From Pirellula sp. (lineage in GTDB: Bacteria; Planctomycetota; Planctomycetia; Pirellulales; PNKZ01), in contig PNKZ01000002.1 of assembly GCA_013822735.1 (NCBI GenBank), forward strand, positions 620,001 to 684,000: a stretch of DNA of 64,000 bases, read 5' to 3'. Positions 8,115-57,572 of the stretch are shown piece after piece. Made by a program: the position numbers and the translations under genes. The first letter of the stretch is position 1. Every line of letters starts with the position of its first letter. The notes beneath the pieces were generated by a model. The model was given only the letters and a program-made list of their open reading frames with translations. It had not been told where the DNA came from and did not search any database.

Positions 8115-8190
8115 GGGACATTCTACTTTTGTAAAACCAGCAGTTTAAAATGGGACATTCTACTTTTGTAAAACCAGAATGTCCCATTTT
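8115..8190. repeat. 26-bp direct repeat plus 15-bp inverted repeat, REP/IS-end-like
   Basis: The 26-bp word beginning GGGACATTCTACTTTTGT occurs twice, at 8115-8140 and 8152-8177. The second copy is part of a perfect 15-bp inverted repeat, AAAATGGGACATTCT (8147-8161) and AGAATGTCCCATTTT (8176-8190), around a 14-base loop. AT-rich GTTTAAAA words lie just upstream (8085-8110). No transposase gene is present. The structure resembles a REP element or an IS200/IS605-type end left behind. It occupies the 357-base gap 7938-8293, which holds no gene. Confidence 0.75.
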
Positions 8191-11334: not shown

Positions 11335-11399
11335 CGTCAGTCGGGGGCGTCAGTCGGGGGCGTCAGTCGGGGGCGTCAGTCGGGGGCGTCAGTCGGGGG
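11335..11399. repeat. Tandem repeat, five perfect copies of a 13-bp unit
   Basis: The unit CGTCAGTCGGGGG is repeated head to tail five times without a mismatch (11335-11347, 11348-11360, 11361-11373, 11374-11386, 11387-11399). The stop codon of the marR gene (minus strand, 11389-11391) lies inside the last unit, so the array forms the 3' end of marR and the start of the marR-pirin spacer. Confidence 0.95.
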
Positions 11400-11871
11400 C
11401 GTCGTTCACGCGCTGCCGGGCTTTTTCGAGGAGCCGGCTGAGCTCTTTGAGTTCGGCCTTGGTGAGGTGGCCGACGAGGCGATGGTGGAGCTGGGAGACG
11501 GGCTCATCGAGCGACTTTAGCAGAGCAGTGCCTTTCTCCGTGAGCTCGACGTAGATGACGCGACGGTCTTCGGTGCTGCGATGACGGCCGATGAGGCTTT
11601 GTTGCTCGAGCCGATCGAGTAGGCCGGTCATGGCGGGCACGACCTGAATCATGCGCTCGGCAATCTCCTGGCAGGGGAGGGGCCGGCCCTCGCCGCGGAG
11701 GATGCGGAGGACGTTGTACTGCGAGGAGGTGAGGGCGTATTCGCGGAAGAGGCGGCCGAAACGATTGTCGAACTGGTCGTTAGTGCGGAGCAGATTCAGA
11801 ATCGCCTCTTGCTCGGGCGATTCGAACGGGCGGCGTTTTTTGAGTTCGTGCTGCAGGCCGGCGGGGGACAT
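11389..11871 (-). CDS. MarR family transcriptional regulator
   Basis: A 160-residue winged-helix regulator. Residues 45-110 carry the MarR DNA-binding domain: SSQYNVLRILRGEG, then LPCQEIAERM (recognition region), VPAMTGLLDRLEQQSLIGR and the wing STEDRRVIYVELTEKG. Flanking helices form the dimer interface. MarR proteins usually repress a neighbouring gene until a phenolic or oxidant ligand binds. A promoter with TTGACA and an inverted repeat TTACAT/ATGTAA lies 50-90 bp upstream of the start, consistent with autoregulation. The last four codons and the stop fall in a 13-bp tandem repeat, so the C-terminus could vary between strains. Confidence 0.9.
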   Translation of the reverse strand: MSPAGLQHELKKRRPFESPEQEAILNLLRTNDQFDNRFGRLFREYALTSSQYNVLRILRGEGRPLPCQEIAERMIQVVPAMTGLLDRLEQQSLIGRHRSTEDRRVIYVELTEKGTALLKSLDEPVSQLHHRLVGHLTKAELKELSRLLEKARQRVNDAPD

Positions 11872-49650: not shown

Positions 49651-51258
49651 ATGAAGCCCGAACCATTTTGGAAACGCTCGGCCTTGAAGCGTTTTCCCGC
49701 TCCGAAGCGTGCCGCGCCATTCGATGTGGTCGTGATCGGCGGCGGAATCACCGGGCTGACGACCGCCTATCTGCTGAAGCAGGCCGGGAAGAGAGTGGCC
49801 GTGCTCGAGCGCGATCGGATCGGTTCGGGAGATACCGGCTATACCACGGCGCATCTGACGTACGTAACGGACCTGCGGGCCGCGGAACTTGTCGACACCT
49901 TCGGCCTGCCGGCGGCCCGACTGGTGTGGCAAGCGGGCGCCACGGCGATCGACGCGATTGAGGGAATTGTCGCGGATGAAAGAGTTGAGTGTGATTTTCG
50001 CCGCGTGCCGGGATACCTGCATGCTCCGCGGAAAAAGAAGCGTGACGAACGCGCGGCGTTGGAGAAGGACGTCGACGCCGCGCGGCAGATGGGATTCGCC
50101 GTGCGCTACCTGCCGCAGGCGCCGCTTTTTGATTGCGAGGGGATTCGTTTTCCGGACCAGGCGAAGTTTGATCCGTTGAAATACTTGGCAGGCTTGGCCG
50201 CGGCGGTCGACGGCGACGGAAGTCAGGTGTTTGAAAATGCGGAAGTCGACGAGGTGAGCGACGAGCCGCTGCATGTGACGGTGAAGAAGCACAAGTTGAC
50301 GACCGATTACGTCGTGATTGCGACGCATGTGCCGCTGATGGGGAAAACCGGAATGATGAGTGCGGCGCTCTTTCAGACGAAGCTTTACTCGTATTCGTCG
50401 TATGCAATTGGGGCGAAAGTGCCCCACGGTCGGTTGCCCGAGGCTTGCTTCTGGGACACGGCCGATCCGTACCACTATTTGCGCGTGGAAGCGGGGGCGA
50501 AGCACGACTATGTGATTTACGGGGGCCATGATCACAAGACGGGACAGGTAACCGATACGCAGCCGCGGTTCGATTCGTTGGCGAGCGAGCTGCGCGAGAT
50601 CGTGCCGGGAGCGGTGCCCGATAGGCAATGGTCGGGCCAGGTGGTGGAGACGAACGACGGGTTGCCGTATATCGGCGAGAGCGCCGTGAATCAGTTCGTC
50701 GCGACGGGCTTCAGCGGCAACGGGATGACCTTCGGCACCGTGGCCGCGCTGATGGCGCGCGACGCCGTACTGAAGCGCGACAACCCGTGGAAGAAGCTGT
50801 TCGCCGTCGATCGAAAAAAATTGCGCGGCGGCACTTGGGACTATCTCACGGAGAACATCGACTTTCCGTATTACTACCTCAAAGATCGGTTGCTCAAGCC
50901 GGCCGACACTTCGGCGCGCGGCATTGCGCCGGGCTGCGGCAAAGTGATTGAGATCGGCGGCGAGCACGTGGCGTGCGCGCGCGACGACGAGGGAACGCTC
51001 CACCAAGTCTCCGCGGTTTGCACCCACATGGGGTGCCTCGTGCGTTTCAACGACGCGGAGCATACCTGGGACTGCCCGTGCCACGGCTCGCGCTTTCATC
51101 TCGACGGCAAGGTGCTCGCGGGGCCGGCCGAAACGCCGCTGGAGCCGGTGAAGGGAGCGGCGAAGTCGAAGGCGAAGCCGAAGACCACGGCGAACGGCGC
51201 GAGCTCGACGCGCAAGGTGACAAAGAAGCCGTCGCAGAAGGCGAAGAGCCGGAGTTAG
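49651..51258 (+). CDS. FAD-dependent oxidoreductase fused to a Rieske [2Fe-2S] domain
   Basis: A 535-residue protein. The N-terminal DAO-type FAD domain begins VVVIGGGITGLTTAYLL (residues about 26-42), with ERDRIGSGDTGYTTAHLTY and a C-terminal FAD loop VATGFSGNGMTFGT. The C-terminal Rieske domain (about 425-500) has C457-T-H459 and C475-PC-H478 (CTHMGC, CPCHGSRF), the complete 2Cys-2His site. This architecture is known from YhfW-like proteins with unknown electron acceptor. The last 35 residues are a Lys/Ser/Ala-rich basic tail, which is odd for a cytoplasmic flavoprotein. No electron-transfer partner is adjacent. Confidence 0.92.
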   Translation: MKPEPFWKRSALKRFPAPKRAAPFDVVVIGGGITGLTTAYLLKQAGKRVAVLERDRIGSGDTGYTTAHLTYVTDLRAAELVDTFGLPAARLVWQAGATAIDAIEGIVADERVECDFRRVPGYLHAPRKKKRDERAALEKDVDAARQMGFAVRYLPQAPLFDCEGIRFPDQAKFDPLKYLAGLAAAVDGDGSQVFENAEVDEVSDEPLHVTVKKHKLTTDYVVIATHVPLMGKTGMMSAALFQTKLYSYSSYAIGAKVPHGRLPEACFWDTADPYHYLRVEAGAKHDYVIYGGHDHKTGQVTDTQPRFDSLASELREIVPGAVPDRQWSGQVVETNDGLPYIGESAVNQFVATGFSGNGMTFGTVAALMARDAVLKRDNPWKKLFAVDRKKLRGGTWDYLTENIDFPYYYLKDRLLKPADTSARGIAPGCGKVIEIGGEHVACARDDEGTLHQVSAVCTHMGCLVRFNDAEHTWDCPCHGSRFHLDGKVLAGPAETPLEPVKGAAKSKAKPKTTANGASSTRKVTKKPSQKAKSRS

Positions 51259-51367: not shown

Positions 51368-52198
51368 TTAGCTAAACTCGCCGCTCAGGTAGTCTTTGGT
51401 GTGTTTTTCGAGCGGGTTTTCGAAAAGTTCGTCGGTCTTGCGATACTCGACCAAATAGCCGGTGCGGCCTCCCTTGGTGGTGTCGACGTACATGAATGCG
51501 GTGGAATCGGCGACCCGTTTGGCCTGTTGCAAGTTGTGCGTCACGATGGCGATGGTGAAGCGCTCCTTGAGTTCCTTCATGAGGTCTTCAATGCGGCGCG
51601 TGGCGATCGGATCGAGGGCCGAGCACGGTTCGTCCATCAGCAGGACTTCGGGATCGGTGGCGATGGCGCGGGCGATGCAGAGCCGCTGTTGCTGGCCGCC
51701 GGAGAGCGAAAGGCCGCTGGCTCGCAGCTTGTCTTTCACTTCGTCCCACAGGGCCGCGCCGCGGAGCGATTGCTCGACCTTTTCCGCCACGCTTCCTTTG
51801 AAGCGATTGATTCGCAAACCGAAGGCGACGTTATTGTAAATGCTCATTGCAAACGGATTCGGCTGCTGGAACACCATGCCGATGTAGCGACGCACGGCGA
51901 CCGGATCGACGCCGGGGTGGTAGATGTCCTTGCCGCGGTAGTGGACATATCCTTCGAAGCTGAAACCGCGCACCAAATCGTTCATGCGGTTGATGCAGCG
52001 GAGAGCGGTGCTTTTGCCGCACCCGGAAGGGCCGATGAAGGCGGTGATGGTCTTCTTGCGGATCGGAATGTGCGCATCACGGACGGCGAAAAACTTTCCG
52101 TAGTGGAGCCTGTCGATTTTGCAATCGATGACGATATCCGACGTTTCGCCGTTCTTATGTTGCGGCGCGGCGGTGACCATGGTTGGCGTTCCTGTCAT
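51368..52198 (-). CDS. pstB: Phosphate ABC transporter, ATP-binding protein
   Basis: A 276-residue ATPase of the high-affinity phosphate importer. Walker A is [10 protein letters not shown], the signature [14 protein letters not shown], Walker [14 protein letters not shown] and the switch His in IVTHNLQQA. The Q-loop [15 protein letters not shown] is that of PstB. The start at 52198 overlaps the pstA stop as ATGA, so translation is coupled; ATG 52180 with AGGA upstream is the alternative. Genes run pstS-pstC-pstA-pstB on the minus strand, and no phoU follows. Confidence 0.96.
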
Positions 52199-53109
52199 TT
52201 GACACTTCGACGTGAGAATGCTTGGCCGATCAGGTTGAGAACGAGCACGATCATCACCAGCACGAGCGACGCGGACCAAGCCAACTCGACCTGATTCTCG
52301 GCAGGGCTGCCGGAGAAGTTGTAAATCAACACGGCGAGCGAGGCGGTCCGCTGCATGAGATCGAGAGAGCCGTCTTCAAACAACCAATAGCGGCTGAACA
52401 AGGCGGTGAAGATGAGCGGCGCCGTTTCGCCTGCGGCGCGGGCCACGGCGAGCATGACGCCCGTTAGGATGCCCGGCATAGCCGAGGGGAGCAGCACGCG
52501 GCAAGTGAGCTGCGTGGTGGTGCAGCCGATGCCGATGGCCGCTTCGCGCATGCGGCTCGGCACCATGCGGATGGCTTCTTCGGACGTGAGAATGATCGTC
52601 GGCAGCATGAGGATGGCCAGCGCGATGCCGCCCGCGGGAGCGGAAAACGTGCCGGTGACCAACACCACGGCGCCGTAGGCGAAGACGCCCGCCAAGATCG
52701 ACGGGAAGCCGGTCAGCAGCTTGGCGCAGAAGCGCACGGCGGACGAGGTGCGCGAATTCGGCGAGATTTCCGCGAGAAACACGGCGGCCAAGACGCCGAA
52801 CGGAATGGCGATCAACGCCGCGATGCCGACCATCACCAGCGTGCCGAGGATGGCATTGCCGAAGCCGCCGCCGGCCACGCCCGGAGCGGGCGGCGATTGC
52901 GTGAACAATTCCCAGCTCAAGCGTTTGCCGCCGCGATAAATGAGCATCGCCAACACGGAAACCAGCGGCAACATGGCGATGAGCGTCAGCGAGCCGGTGA
53001 CGAAGCTCATACTCGCGCTGAAGAAGGCCCGAGGCGTGTAGATCGACCGCTCGAGATCCGGCAGGTCCACCCCTTCGAAGAGGTCTCGATGGGAGATTTC
53101 GGCGGTCAT
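52195..53109 (-). CDS. pstA: Phosphate ABC transporter permease PstA
   Basis: A 304-residue membrane permease with six hydrophobic segments. The EAA-type cytoplasmic loop is [41 protein letters not shown]. The N-terminal 35 residues are a cytoplasmic extension. Start (ATG 53109) and stop overlap their neighbours as ATGA at both ends, so pstC, pstA and pstB form one coupled operon. Confidence 0.95.
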
Positions 53110-54089
53110 TTCGAAACTCCCGACAGCCGGGAAGCCGTCTTATTCAAGATCGCCGCGCCCAAGCAATTCACCATCAGCGTGATGAGCAGCAGCACGAGCG
53201 CCGCATACATCAACACTTGGCGTTCTTCCGCGCCGGCCTCCGGGAAGTGATTCGCCAAGAGTGCCGCCAACGTGTTTCCCGGCGAGAACAACGAGACGCT
53301 CAAGCGATTGGCGTTGCCGACCAGCATGGCCAGCGCCATCGTCTCGCCGAGTGCGCGACCGAAGCCGAGCACGATCGAGCCGAAGATGCCGGTCGACGCC
53401 GTCGGCACGATGACGCCGAGAATCGCTTCCCAGCGGGTCGCACCGAGTCCGACGGCCGCTTCCTTCAACTTATGCGGCACCGAAACCAATGCGTCGCGCG
53501 AGATCGCCGACACCGTGGGAAGAATCATAATCGCCAACACGAGCGAAGCCGGCAGCATGCCGGGCCCGCTGAGGGGCGTGCTAAACAGCGGAATCGCCCC
53601 GAAGTTTTCGTGCAGCCAATTCGCGGCCGGCCGAATCATCGGAATGACGACGAAGATTCCCCACAAACCGTACACCACGCTGGGAATGGCCGCGAGCAGT
53701 TCAATGATGTTCTTGGCGATCAGTTCCAACTTCGGCGGGAGGAAATCCTGACTCAGGAAGATGGCAATGGCCACGCCGAACACCGAGCCGATGAGAATTC
53801 CGAGAATGCTGCTGTAGAGCGTTCCCCAAATCTCCGGCAGGATGCCGAACTCCCCGCGGTTTAGATCCCACGTCGTCGACGTGATGAGACTCGTTCCGTG
53901 TTCTTGAATCGCCGGAGCGGCAACTTTGCCGATTTCATAGATAATGAAAACGACCAGCAGAATCGTCAGCCAGGCGAACGCCACGGTCGAGCCGCGGAAG
54001 AAACGATCGACGAAGCGATCGAATCCTTGCGGCGGCCTAATGATCCGATTCGGCTCGGCCGGACCGGATTCGAACAACTGACTTGACAT
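53106..54089 (-). CDS. pstC: Phosphate ABC transporter permease PstC
   Basis: A 327-residue membrane permease with six segments after a cytoplasmic N-terminus. The loop DALVSVPHKLKEAAVGLGATRWEAILGVIVPTASTGIFG is the conserved EAA motif, followed by the PstC-typical GRALGETMALAMLVGN. It forms the channel with PstA. The start is 52 bp after the pstS stop, and its own stop overlaps pstA by 4 bp. Confidence 0.96.
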   Translation of the reverse strand: MSSQLFESGPAEPNRIIRPPQGFDRFVDRFFRGSTVAFAWLTILLVVFIIYEIGKVAAPAIQEHGTSLITSTTWDLNRGEFGILPEIWGTLYSSILGILIGSVFGVAIAIFLSQDFLPPKLELIAKNIIELLAAIPSVVYGLWGIFVVIPMIRPAANWLHENFGAIPLFSTPLSGPGMLPASLVLAIMILPTVSAISRDALVSVPHKLKEAAVGLGATRWEAILGVIVPTASTGIFGSIVLGFGRALGETMALAMLVGNANRLSVSLFSPGNTLAALLANHFPEAGAEERQVLMYAALVLLLITLMVNCLGAAILNKTASRLSGVSK

Positions 54090-54141: not shown

Positions 54142-55185
54142 CTACGGCTTGATGTCGTCGACCTTCGCGAGAATCTTGGTCGTGACGTCGGTCGGCAGCG
54201 GAATGTAGCCGAGCTCTTCGCTCACCTTTTGGCCGTCCCCCAAACCGTAGCGAATTACGTCCTTCAACGTCTTGGCCTTCGCGGCATCCTTGTACGTCTT
54301 GTAGGCCAGCAACCAGGTGTACGTGACGATCGGGTACGATTCCTTGCCCGACGGGTCCGGCACCCACGCGAGGAGATTGTCCGGCATCGGAGCCGAGGCC
54401 AGCGCGACTTGTGCCGATTTGGTGTTGGCGACCACGAACGCGCCATCCTTGTTTTCCAAGGCAGCCCCCATCAAACCGGACGACTTCAAGAAGCCGTACT
54501 CGACATAACCGATTGCGCCCGGCGTGCTCTTCACTTGAGCGGCGACGCCGTCGTTCTTCTTGCCGCCGACGCCGACCTTCCAATTCACCGATTTGCCCGT
54601 TCCCGGGCCGTTTTTCCAATCGGCGCTCACGGCCGACAAGTGTTGCGTGAAGACGAACGTCGTTCCGCTGCTATCGGCGCGATAAACCGGTGTGATCGTA
54701 AGATCGGGCAGCGACACTCCGGCATTCGACTTGGCGATGGCCGGATCGTTCCACTTCGTAATCTTGCCGAGGAAGATGCCGACATAGGCTTCTCGCGACA
54801 GCTTCAGGCCTTCCGGGGCGCCCGGCACGTTGTAAGCCAGCACGATACTGCCGGCGGTCATCGGCAGCATGACCACGCCGCCGTCAACCTTCTTCACTTC
54901 ATCTTCCGTCATCGCCGCGTCGCTGGCGGCGAAGTCGACCGTCTTCTCGATCAAAGCATTGATACCGCCGCCGCTTCCCACCGCCTGATAATCAATCGCG
55001 GCGCCCGGATGGGCTTTGCAGTAATCCGCGAACCAGCGTTGATAAAGCGGATCGGGAAAGCTGGCTCCCGAACCGGCCAATTTTGCACTCTCCACTTTGG
55101 CGCCGGACGGATCCGATTTTGAACACGCGACGACCAAGCTGCACGTTGCGAGCAAGCCGAAAATGAAGGCGCGACGCAGGCTCAT
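54142..55185 (-). CDS. pstS: Phosphate-binding lipoprotein PstS
   Basis: A 347-residue periplasmic substrate-binding protein. ATG 55185 has GGAG five bases upstream. The leader ends with lipobox VVAC21. Phosphate-binding residues are visible in GSGASFPDPLYQRW, QAVGSGGGI, DFAASDAAMTEDE and YRADSSGTTFVFTQHLS, the PstS pattern. As a lipoprotein it would be membrane-anchored rather than free. It heads the pst operon; a candidate Pho box lies about 135 bp upstream. Confidence 0.96.
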   Translation of the reverse strand: MSLRRAFIFGLLATCSLVVACSKSDPSGAKVESAKLAGSGASFPDPLYQRWFADYCKAHPGAAIDYQAVGSGGGINALIEKTVDFAASDAAMTEDEVKKVDGGVVMLPMTAGSIVLAYNVPGAPEGLKLSREAYVGIFLGKITKWNDPAIAKSNAGVSLPDLTITPVYRADSSGTTFVFTQHLSAVSADWKNGPGTGKSVNWKVGVGGKKNDGVAAQVKSTPGAIGYVEYGFLKSSGLMGAALENKDGAFVVANTKSAQVALASAPMPDNLLAWVPDPSGKESYPIVTYTWLLAYKTYKDAAKAKTLKDVIRYGLGDGQKVSEELGYIPLPTDVTTKILAKVDDIKP

Positions 55186-55319
55186 AGTAACTCCGCGATG
55201 TCGAACAAAATGAGTAATGAGGAGCGACGTATTCTGAACAAGGCCCGTCGTATCCGCCATGAGCGACACGTCGATTTACGAGATTCTCACAGTCGTCCGA
55301 CGGTTCTTCGCGCGTAGTT

Positions 55320-55359
55320 GTTAGAGATGCGTTAGCGCCGTGTAACGGCCCTGTTTGCA
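55320..55359. promoter_or_regulatory. Candidate Pho box: four heptads at exact 11-bp spacing
   Basis: GTTAGAG (55320), GTTAGCG (55331), GTAACGG (55342) and GTTTGCA (55353) begin exactly 11 bp apart. PhoB/PhoP-type regulators bind direct repeats with one 11-bp helical turn. The array lies between divergent pstS and ppk, about 100 bp from ppk and 135 bp from pstS. No clear -10 box can be assigned. Confidence 0.5.
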
Positions 55360-55460
55360 AGTTAAGGGTTTGCAAGATTTATGCATGCGGGGCAGACTTT
55401 TCGCTTGATGTGCATCATCCTTGAGCCCTCTCACTCCATCCTTCCGGTTGCCGCTTCGCT

Positions 55461-57572
55461 ATGAATTCCGAACTCGCTTCGCCCGTCGCCGGCGGCGTCT
55501 ATCGAGACCGCGATTTGGCTTGGTTGGAATTCAATCGTCGCGTGCTTCATGAAGCGATCGACGAGCGCAATCCGCTTTTAGAACGCGTCAAGTTTCTCGC
55601 CATCGCGGGAAATAATCTCGACGAGTTCACCATGAAGCGCGTCGGCGCATTGAAACAAAAAGCGGCTACGCAAATCGGCGACGCCGGCGCCGCGACGCGA
55701 TTTCTGGAACTGCGCGCCAGCATGCTGAAGTTGCTCGCGCAGCAGGCCGAACTCTGGACGAAGGTGTTGCTGCCCGAGCTGGCCAAGCACGGCATTCAAA
55801 TTGTCGGCGTCGACGAACTCTCCGAAGAGCAAGCCGTTTTTGCGCGCGAGTTCTTTCGCAGCAAAGTCTTTCCGATTCTGACGCCCCTCTCGGTCGACCC
55901 CGGCCATCCGTTTCCGATTATCTCCAATCTGTCGACGTCGCTCGGAGTGATGCTGCGAAATCCCGAAACGGAATCGCGCTCCTTCGCGCGGATCAAGGTT
56001 CCCTCGACGCTTCCGCAGTTGATCCTCTTGCCGAACGATCCGAGCGGAGCGCCGGGCGAGCGTCGCTTTTTGCGCCTCGTCGATTTGATTCGGCAGCACC
56101 TGGGGGCGCTGTTCCCCGGGATGATTCTCGCCGACGTGATGTCGTTTCGTATTACGCGCGGCGTGGGCGTCGATCTCGAAGATGACGAAGCCTACGAGAG
56201 CGTCGCCGAATACGTCGAGGAAGAAATCCGCCAGCGACGCTTTGAGCGCGTCGTCCGCCTCGAATATGCCGGCGGCGGAAGCGCGGAGATGTTGTCGTTG
56301 TTGCTTTCCAAATTGGAACTCACGGAAAGCGACGCCTTCGAAATGCCGGCCGAGCTCGACTACACCGACCTGTTCGCGATCGCCGGATTGCCGATCGCAG
56401 AATTGCGCGAAAAGCCGTGGCATCCCGTCGTTCCGCCGGCAGTGGAAGGGCGCGAGACCGACTTGTTTTCCGTCATTCGTTCCGGCGATCTGCTCGTGCA
56501 TCATCCGTACGAAAGCTTCGAGATGACGGTCGAGAACTTCATTCGCCGCGCGGCGGCCGATCCGAAAGTCGTGGCGCTCAAGATGACGGTCTACCGCGTC
56601 GGGGCCGACACCCCGTTTCTCGACGCCCTCATCGCGGCCGCCGAAGCAGGCAAGGAAGTCGCTTGCCTGGTGGAAGTGACCGCCAGTTTCGACGAGCGCC
56701 AAAACCTCGACCTCGCGCAGATGCTCGAGAAGGCCGGCGTTCATGTGGTCTACGGCATGGTCGGCTTGAAAACGCATTGCAAGACGGCGCTCGTCGTGCG
56801 CGAGGAGGAAGACGGGCTCCGCTGCTACGCGCACGTCGGCACCGGCAACTACCATGTGAAAACCGCGCGGCATTATACCGATCTCGGATTGTTCACGTGC
56901 GATCCGATGGTGACCGACGACGTCGTTCACTTGTTTCATTATCTCACCGGGCTCTCGCTGAAGCGCAACTACGCCAAGCTATTGATCGCGCCGATGAACA
57001 TGCGCGATCGCTTCCTCACGATGATTCGCGAAGAGACGGCGCATCACGTCGCCGGCCGGCCCGCCAAGATCATCGCTAAGATGAATCAGTTGGAAGACCG
57101 CGAGATCTGCGAGGCACTCATCGAAGCCTCGCGCGCCGGGCTGGAGATTGAGCTGATCGTGCGCGGGCTTTGCGTGCTGAATCCCGGCATCGCGGGAAGC
57201 ACGGAAACGATTAAGGTCACCTCCGTGATCGGCCGGTTTTTAGAACACTCGCGCGTGTTCTACTTCCGCAACGGCGCGGCCGAGCCGGAAGAGGGGAAGT
57301 TCTTCATTGGTTCGGCCGATTGGATGCATCGCAACCTTTCGGGCCGCGTCGAGGCCGTCGTCCCCATTGAGAACGAAGCGCACCGCCGTCGGCTGTGGAA
57401 ACTGCTGACGACCATGCTGAACGACCGGCGACAAGCCTGGGAGATGCAAAGCGACGGCACCTATCTTCAGCGCAAGCCCGACGACGGTGACGGCGACGGT
57501 GCTTTAGGCTCGCACCAAGTGTTTATGGCCGCCGCGTCTCCCGGGGGTGGCGCAGGCTCGCGAACTCTTTAA
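55461..57572 (+). CDS. ppk: Polyphosphate kinase 1
   Basis: A 703-residue enzyme that makes polyphosphate from ATP. The N-terminal domain starts DLAWLEFNRRVLHEA and contains FLAIAGNNLDEFTMKRVGALK; the head domain follows; the catalytic domains have YAHVGTGNYHVKTARHYTDLGLFT with the autophosphorylated His, and ICEALIEASRAGLEIELIVRG and LEHSRVFYFRNG with the second conserved His. Length is normal for PPK1. Divergent from pstS, it is likely co-regulated by phosphate. The last codon overlaps the convergent sulfatase gene by 4 bp. Confidence 0.97.
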   Translation: MNSELASPVAGGVYRDRDLAWLEFNRRVLHEAIDERNPLLERVKFLAIAGNNLDEFTMKRVGALKQKAATQIGDAGAATRFLELRASMLKLLAQQAELWTKVLLPELAKHGIQIVGVDELSEEQAVFAREFFRSKVFPILTPLSVDPGHPFPIISNLSTSLGVMLRNPETESRSFARIKVPSTLPQLILLPNDPSGAPGERRFLRLVDLIRQHLGALFPGMILADVMSFRITRGVGVDLEDDEAYESVAEYVEEEIRQRRFERVVRLEYAGGGSAEMLSLLLSKLELTESDAFEMPAELDYTDLFAIAGLPIAELREKPWHPVVPPAVEGRETDLFSVIRSGDLLVHHPYESFEMTVENFIRRAAADPKVVALKMTVYRVGADTPFLDALIAAAEAGKEVACLVEVTASFDERQNLDLAQMLEKAGVHVVYGMVGLKTHCKTALVVREEEDGLRCYAHVGTGNYHVKTARHYTDLGLFTCDPMVTDDVVHLFHYLTGLSLKRNYAKLLIAPMNMRDRFLTMIREETAHHVAGRPAKIIAKMNQLEDREICEALIEASRAGLEIELIVRGLCVLNPGIAGSTETIKVTSVIGRFLEHSRVFYFRNGAAEPEEGKFFIGSADWMHRNLSGRVEAVVPIENEAHRRRLWKLLTTMLNDRRQAWEMQSDGTYLQRKPDDGDGDGALGSHQVFMAAASPGGGAGSRTL

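Follow-up and report, generated by a model that had tools for sequence, protein, structure and literature searches.

The pstS–ppk locus and its 11-bp repeats

The window, by which we mean the whole stretch of 64,000 nucleotides that was analysed, carries a phosphate importer operon on the minus strand and a polyphosphate kinase gene divergent from it. The phosphate-binding protein is encoded by pstS (54142..55185), which matches TIGR00975 with 376.1 bits at a cut-off of 205 and for which an in-frame GTG at 55269 is an alternative start candidate. It is followed on the same strand by the permease genes pstC (53106..54089) and pstA (52195..53109) and by the ATPase gene pstB (51368..52279), matched above the NCBIfam cut-offs by TIGR02138, TIGR00974 and TIGR00972, respectively. 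The open reading frame of pstB begins with a TTG that overlaps pstA, and the true start lies probably further in. On the plus strand, ppk (55461..57572) encodes polyphosphate kinase 1 (Ppk1) and matches TIGR03705 above the NCBIfam cut-off. The intergenic region between pstS and ppk spans 55186-55460, 275 bp. Downstream of pstB, on the opposite strand, lies a gene for a FAD-dependent oxidoreductase with a C-terminal Rieske-like part (49651-51258).

A match to the window PstS is found in only two of the seven genomes of the family, the window's own genome (G000) and its congener G006; G004 and G005, two of the genus's four genomes, give none, so even congeners differ in carrying the pst–ppk pair. 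Of 28 pstS loci whose flanks extend over about 1.5 kb, G000 and G006 alone show the divergent arrangement. Both genomes also hold a second ppk copy, which in G000 lies at G000:C10:177694 and is 42% identical to the window gene. Across 80 ppk loci in named genomes, seven have a match to pst, phoU or a phoR-like gene in their flanks and none is divergent with pstS. The closest named relative of the window ppk comes from a Planctomycetia MAG (63% identity). In four of these seven loci, of Competibacteraceae type (L218, L220, L226 and L229), a 55%-identical ppk stands just downstream of pstB-pstS on the same strand, and a contig titled as a Klebsiella pneumoniae MAG (L274) carries a ppk 51% identical to that of the window, a title that looks doubtful.

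The first-pass annotation had pointed out four heptads in this divergent promoter region that start exactly 11 bp apart, and both the coordinates and the spacing hold. On the plus strand they read GTTAGAG (55320-55326), GTTAGCG (55331-55337), GTAACGG (55342-55348) and GTTTGCA (55353-55359). In the direction of pstS, on the minus strand, the array reads TGCAAAC-AGGG-CCGTTAC-ACGG-CGCTAAC-GCAT-CTCTAAC, and we list it as a four-unit candidate Pho-box array (55318..55359) with 11-bp units and its strongest pair at 55318-55337. Direct repeats of 7+4 bp are the known kind of PhoB/PhoP box, and with at least two head-to-tail 7-bp half-sites on an 11-bp period as the definition of a Pho box, the array is one by its layout. 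The 9-bp word GTTTGCAAG, repeated directly and perfectly at a distance of 15 bp (55353-55376), overlaps the last unit of the array.

We assessed the phasing without any motif by summing the pairwise identities over the four heptads. At period 11 the sum is 25/42, compared with at most 21 at periods 8-10 and 12-14. A value of 25/42 is reached at a fraction of 3.1e-4 of window positions. The region would thus be expected to contain 0.07 arrays of this kind, which makes self-similarity by itself suggestive, not decisive, as evidence for real sites. Counting both strands, the 64 kb contain two runs of four GT words spaced by 11 bp, and the array is one of them.

A second candidate Pho-box site, absent from the first-pass annotation, lies on the plus strand at 55273..55292 (ATTTACGAGATTCTCACA), with TTTAC followed 11 bp on by CTCAC; on the minus strand it reads GTGAGAA-TCTC-GTAAATC. 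It is located within a block that aligns between the window and G006. The letters of the array do not align base for base with G006, and from this direct alignment we initially read the array as not conserved there. A motif search overturned this reading, as it finds both sites in the pstS–ppk region of G006 in the same order and on the same strands, so that for the array the motif alone recurs at the same place. A scan of the intergenic region for sigma-70 promoters and terminators gave no matches, and neither of the two window sites is followed by a recognisable -10 element. In G006, CATTAT stands at the right distance behind the array.

Recurrence of the motif at pstS, phoB, phoU and ppk

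The first-pass annotation had made its Pho-box proposal depend on finding the 11-bp periodicity upstream of orthologous pst operons, and phased repeats do recur there in both the order and the class. A search for the window PstS in the order gave a match in 65 of 296 genomes, and TIGR00975 had a match in 240 of 347 genomes of the class, in 87 of them above the cut-off. From the order we used 28 pstS upstream regions, which had been read by eye beforehand (30 loci less the weak matches L051 and L052). Pairs of GTKAR stand 11 bp apart in 11 of these, 12 bp apart in six and 22 bp apart in four, with every other spacing between 5 and 40 occurring in at most three; shuffled sequences give a mean of 0.2 and a maximum of 2 at 11 bp (200 trials). 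The held-out set comprised 52 pstS upstream regions of the class from the upper part of the match list, two of them (L083 and L098) shortened by contig ends. Here the pairs are 11 bp apart in 12/52 and 22 bp apart in 8/52, other spacings from 4 to 30 reach at most 3, and shuffles at 11 bp have a mean of 0.5 and a maximum of 3 (100 trials).

When 78 pstS upstream regions, the window genome and G006 excluded, were analysed by expectation-maximisation with random starting seeds, the best motif was the 11-bp tandem GTGAAGa-TTtg-GTGAAGa and shifted forms of it (15.9 bits); the motifs ranked next look like PstS coding sequence. The best site of this class motif exceeds 10 bits in 67 of 80 pstS upstream regions, 78 of which formed the training set, and several regions are without any. 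Of these best sites, 48 lie on one strand and 19 on the other, the orientation varying among lineages. In the window, the two highest intergenic scores of the class motif are 9.8 bits at 55273-55290 (0.016 expected, rank 4 in the window) and 7.95 bits at 55320-55337 (0.07 expected, rank 17). In the G006 region, its two best sites lie at the corresponding places with 15.6 and 9.4 bits.

A lineage form of the motif, CTAACA-N5-CTAACA, was trained on the pstS and phoB promoters of genomes whose PhoB carries the DVQ-type recognition helix described below, genomes that were picked by helix type after the boxes had been seen by eye. With 17 training sequences, G006 included and the window genome left out, the array takes rank 1 with 18.2 bits and the second site rank 2 with 12.5 bits over both strands of the window. 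With 14 sequences from outside the genus, four of them having weak sites (L041, L045, L133 and L134), the array again ranks first (14.1 bits) and the second site third (12.4 bits). The same genus-free motif has its two best sites in the pstS–ppk region of G006 at L021:7095 (-) and 7035 (+), the counterparts of the array and the second site, which rank 1 and 3 in 10.5 kb. Of 2000 shuffled versions of the region, 0.75% attain the array score and 2.8% the score of the second site. With the motif from 17 sequences, a four-unit chain puts the array first in the window and a three-unit chain puts it third. At period 11 the top-scoring chain of four units in the region attains 27.5, as against at most 7.7 at periods 8-10 and 12-15; at period 8, the best intergenic site, with 7.7, is also the top of the window for that period. 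Because the lineage motif gives high scores within a coding sequence (16.7 bits at L022:19713) and downstream of a PhoD-like domain (17.7 bits at L211:2804) as well, its score alone is not specific. The lineage form bears out the earlier remark that the repeat words differ from the Escherichia coli consensus.

The repeats extend beyond pst to phoB promoters and to some ppk genes. Upstream of phoB in the window genome stands a three-unit box, GTGAGCA-ATCG-ATTAGCA-TTCG-ATGAGCT. The pattern RTKAR-N6-RTKAR-N6-RTKAR has three matches in the whole of G000 (one backwards) and four in G006 (two backwards), and in each genome one of them lies 110-150 bp upstream of phoB. Among 30 phoB upstream regions of the class, the own genome included, the motif trained on pstS reaches 12 bits in 10 (shuffles: mean 1.16, maximum 5 in 200 trials) and 14 bits in eight (shuffles: mean 0.38, maximum 3). 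Over 40 phoB loci, with the own genome and a G006 paralogue included, 16 reach 12 bits as a raw count. In five of seven phoB promoters of the lineage, a -10 candidate (TGCTAYC) follows about 10 bp downstream of the box, which places the box in the -35 position. In G000 and G006 the word is TATCAA, eight bases behind the box within TGCTATCAA, and at the same place we find TGCTACC in L161 and L162 and TGCTACG in L132; no -10-like word was seen behind the box in L131 and L133. The window genome also has a box upstream of phoU, CTAATGCATTTCTCACAT.

With the lineage motif, no box was found at the phoD loci or at the second phoU-like gene examined, and phoX was not found in G000 or G006. Two further groups of class-motif sites were discounted: L023:3591 and 3566, close to the second ppk, lie by eye in or beside a CheX-like gene, and L007:2612 precedes by eye a small BON-domain-like protein. 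Another of the four G006 matches to the triple pattern belongs to an array of five 11-bp units, CTAACATAAATCTGGCTCAGTTCTCACGCTGATCTAACACAAGTCTAACAT (G006:C122, L129:1479-1530). The gene immediately behind it encodes a small secreted protein of unknown function, which has no match in the six other genomes of the family and which is a candidate for a new Pho target.

For ppk, we used 27 loci with planctomycete titles and sufficient flank, L216, L249 and L268 being left out for too little flank. Five of the upstream regions (L213, L214, L217, L227 and L259) contain a site of at least 14 bits by one motif or the other, class or lineage, compared with a mean of 0.1 and a maximum of 1 in 200 shuffling trials. 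The other 22 have no 14-bit site; L282 and L290 come to 10.5 and 10.3 bits. Since 0.1 such regions would be expected and the open reading frames upstream of the five box-bearing genes are by eye not phosphate-like, the count favours ppk as a recurrent predicted Pho target in the phylum, though a strong box is missing from the majority of the ppk promoters examined.

The PhoB-family regulator and its recognition helix

The candidate regulator is a PhoB-family response regulator at G000:C7:8872-9555 (L022:8872-9555). Its best NCBIfam match is TIGR02154 (PhoB) with 248.7 bits, which lies below the equivalog cut-off of 296.2. A PhoR-type kinase adjoins it (L022:9615-11078; best matches PnpS and PhoR, both below their cut-offs), and orthologues are linked to pst. 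In G000 phoB does not adjoin pst. In G042, G164, G204, G140, G216, G110 and G082, phoB lies within a few kb of pstS on one contig, and in G042, whose PhoB is 72% identical, the end of a histidine kinase gene directly precedes pstS. A PhoB query finds a single match in G000 at E <= 1e-40. A second PhoB-like regulator, 55% identical, is present in G006 (L178, G006:C36:65542-66219), with an own box upstream, GTTAGGG-TTTC-GTGAGCG (14.6 bits).

The recognition helix of the window-genome PhoB is ERSVDVQVAGLRKK, a type common to part of the order; in the other planctomycetes examined, the helix is mostly ER-T-I-D-V-H...LR. Comparing helix and half-site in 37 genomes, we find G at heptad position 5 in 11/17 scored half-sites of the DVQ group versus 2/39 of the DVH group (Fisher p = 5e-6), and A in 6 and 37, respectively. 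These figures count G140 in the DVQ group, its helix being DVL; without it the group has 11 G and 5 A (11/16, p = 2e-6). Position 3 of the heptad does not differ by helix type (p = 0.13). Because the counts ignore shared ancestry, the association between helix and position 5 may reflect a single evolutionary change.

These observations lead us to a wider proposal, for which we consider the chances even. The class-wide box CTTCAC-N5-CTTCAC would be read by a PhoB with the helix DVHxxx[LI]R, and in the present lineage regulator and operator would have changed together, to CTAACA-N5-CTAACA read by DVQxxx[LI]R, with pst, ppk, phoU and phoB under one control.

Predicted joint control of uptake and storage, and related systems

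We propose that the organism's own PhoB uses both the array and the site at about 55274 as operators (Pho boxes), through which the divergent pstSCAB and ppk would be activated under phosphate limitation, and we assign this reading a probability of about 0.8. Phosphate limitation would yield phosphorylated PhoB, which would bind head to tail with one protomer per 11-bp unit and activate both promoters, and this shared control would couple phosphate uptake to polyphosphate storage. Binding by PhoB, activation, the response to phosphate, the assignment of each site to a promoter and the joint control of uptake and storage are what we infer from sequence. The first-pass suggestion of a planctomycete Pho box gains support from the recurrence of the motif at pstS, phoB, phoU and some ppk genes and from the sites in G006.

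The boxes could also serve pstSCAB alone, with ppk merely located on the other side. In the array, CTAAC is on the strand that points to pstS, just as it points to phoB in phoB promoters, most ppk upstream regions examined (22/27) are without a strong box, and the divergent arrangement is confined to G000 and G006 among the 28 pstS loci that have flanks of about 1.5 kb. Against this stand the presence of two sites on opposite strands in both of these genomes and the boxes at 5/27 ppk upstream regions elsewhere, where 0.1 would be expected and where the neighbouring open reading frames are by eye not phosphate-like. We hold a function restricted to pstSCAB to be unlikely, though not negligible, relative to joint control of both genes.

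Direct repeats of 11 bp are common in the OmpR/PhoB family, and the genome contains eight matches to the Trans_reg_C domain, two of which were compared with NCBIfam, so that another family member unrelated to phosphate might use the repeats. The occurrence of the motif at pstS, phoB, phoU and ppk speaks against this, as do the adjacency of PhoB to pst in several relatives, the sole match to PhoB in G000 at E <= 1e-40 and the change of the half-site with the PhoB helix, and we judge such a regulator improbable. A chance origin of the phasing would fit the 0.07 arrays expected in the region without a motif, the lack of letter-by-letter alignment in G006 and the shuffled regions that attain the lineage score of the array (0.75% of 2000 trials). 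It is hard to reconcile with an independently trained motif for which the array is the top site of the whole window (about 128,000 positions) and which also picks out the corresponding two sites in G006, and we regard it as very improbable.

Several systems with a comparable layout have been described. In Streptomyces, 11-nt direct repeat units lie upstream of pstS and ppk, and a pstSCAB-ppk supercluster is under PhoP (PMC7866108). The likeness extends to boxes at both genes, the clustering of uptake and polyphosphate genes and the single regulator (PMC7866108). In contrast to Streptomyces, pstS and ppk are divergent here and share one intergenic region, and the half-site given for Streptomyces is GTTCACC (PMC4415409) as opposed to CTAAC/CTCAC here. 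The boxes of cyanobacterial SphR consist of at least three tandem repeats every 11 bp (8 bp and a 3-bp linker) with the consensus CTTAACCT, which among these systems is nearest in letters to CTAACA-N5-CTAACA (PMC1906773). SphR belongs to another phylum, however, and the regulator here is a different PhoB, with the helix DVQVAGLR. The PhoB box of E. coli is described as two head-to-tail units of 11 nt in the -35 position, each with seven conserved bases and four that are less conserved (PMC4415409). The unit layout is the same, as is the -35 position of the box at the phoB promoters here, whereas the half-site CTGTCAT (PMC4415409) differs from the words of this lineage. Mycobacterium tuberculosis PhoP, for which direct repeats of a 7-bp motif with a 4-bp spacer are reported (PMC4832192), shares the repeat layout but has other words and another regulon. 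The induction of ppk by phosphate starvation is treated as general knowledge in a review (PMC4415409).

Within the PVC superphylum, a 21-bp ChIP-Seq consensus, (T/A)NTNAA(G/A)AAANTGN(T/A)AAATTT, is given for PhoB of Waddlia (PMC4989314), and by our own reading it partly matches the class motif GTGAAGa-TTtg-GTGAAGa at an 11-bp offset. The regulon of Waddlia PhoB is proposed to be a specialised chlamydial one, and the authors name the planctomycete PhoB regulon as yet to be defined (PMC4989314). We found no earlier report of a planctomycete Pho box in a literature search that reached few subscription papers; the half-site of this lineage and its connection with an altered recognition helix appear to be new. 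A usable motif would make the phosphate regulon predictable across a phylum in which genetics is hard, and the motif suggests a coupling of phosphate uptake and polyphosphate storage in planctomycetes. It would also offer an example from nature in which a response regulator and its operator have changed in concert.

Elsewhere in the window, two further repeats are present. A perfect 13-bp tandem repeat, CGTCAGTCGGGGG, occurs in 5.3 copies at 11335-11403, and the 18-mer TTTTACAAAAGTAGAATG occurs twice, 37 bp apart, at 8118-8173.
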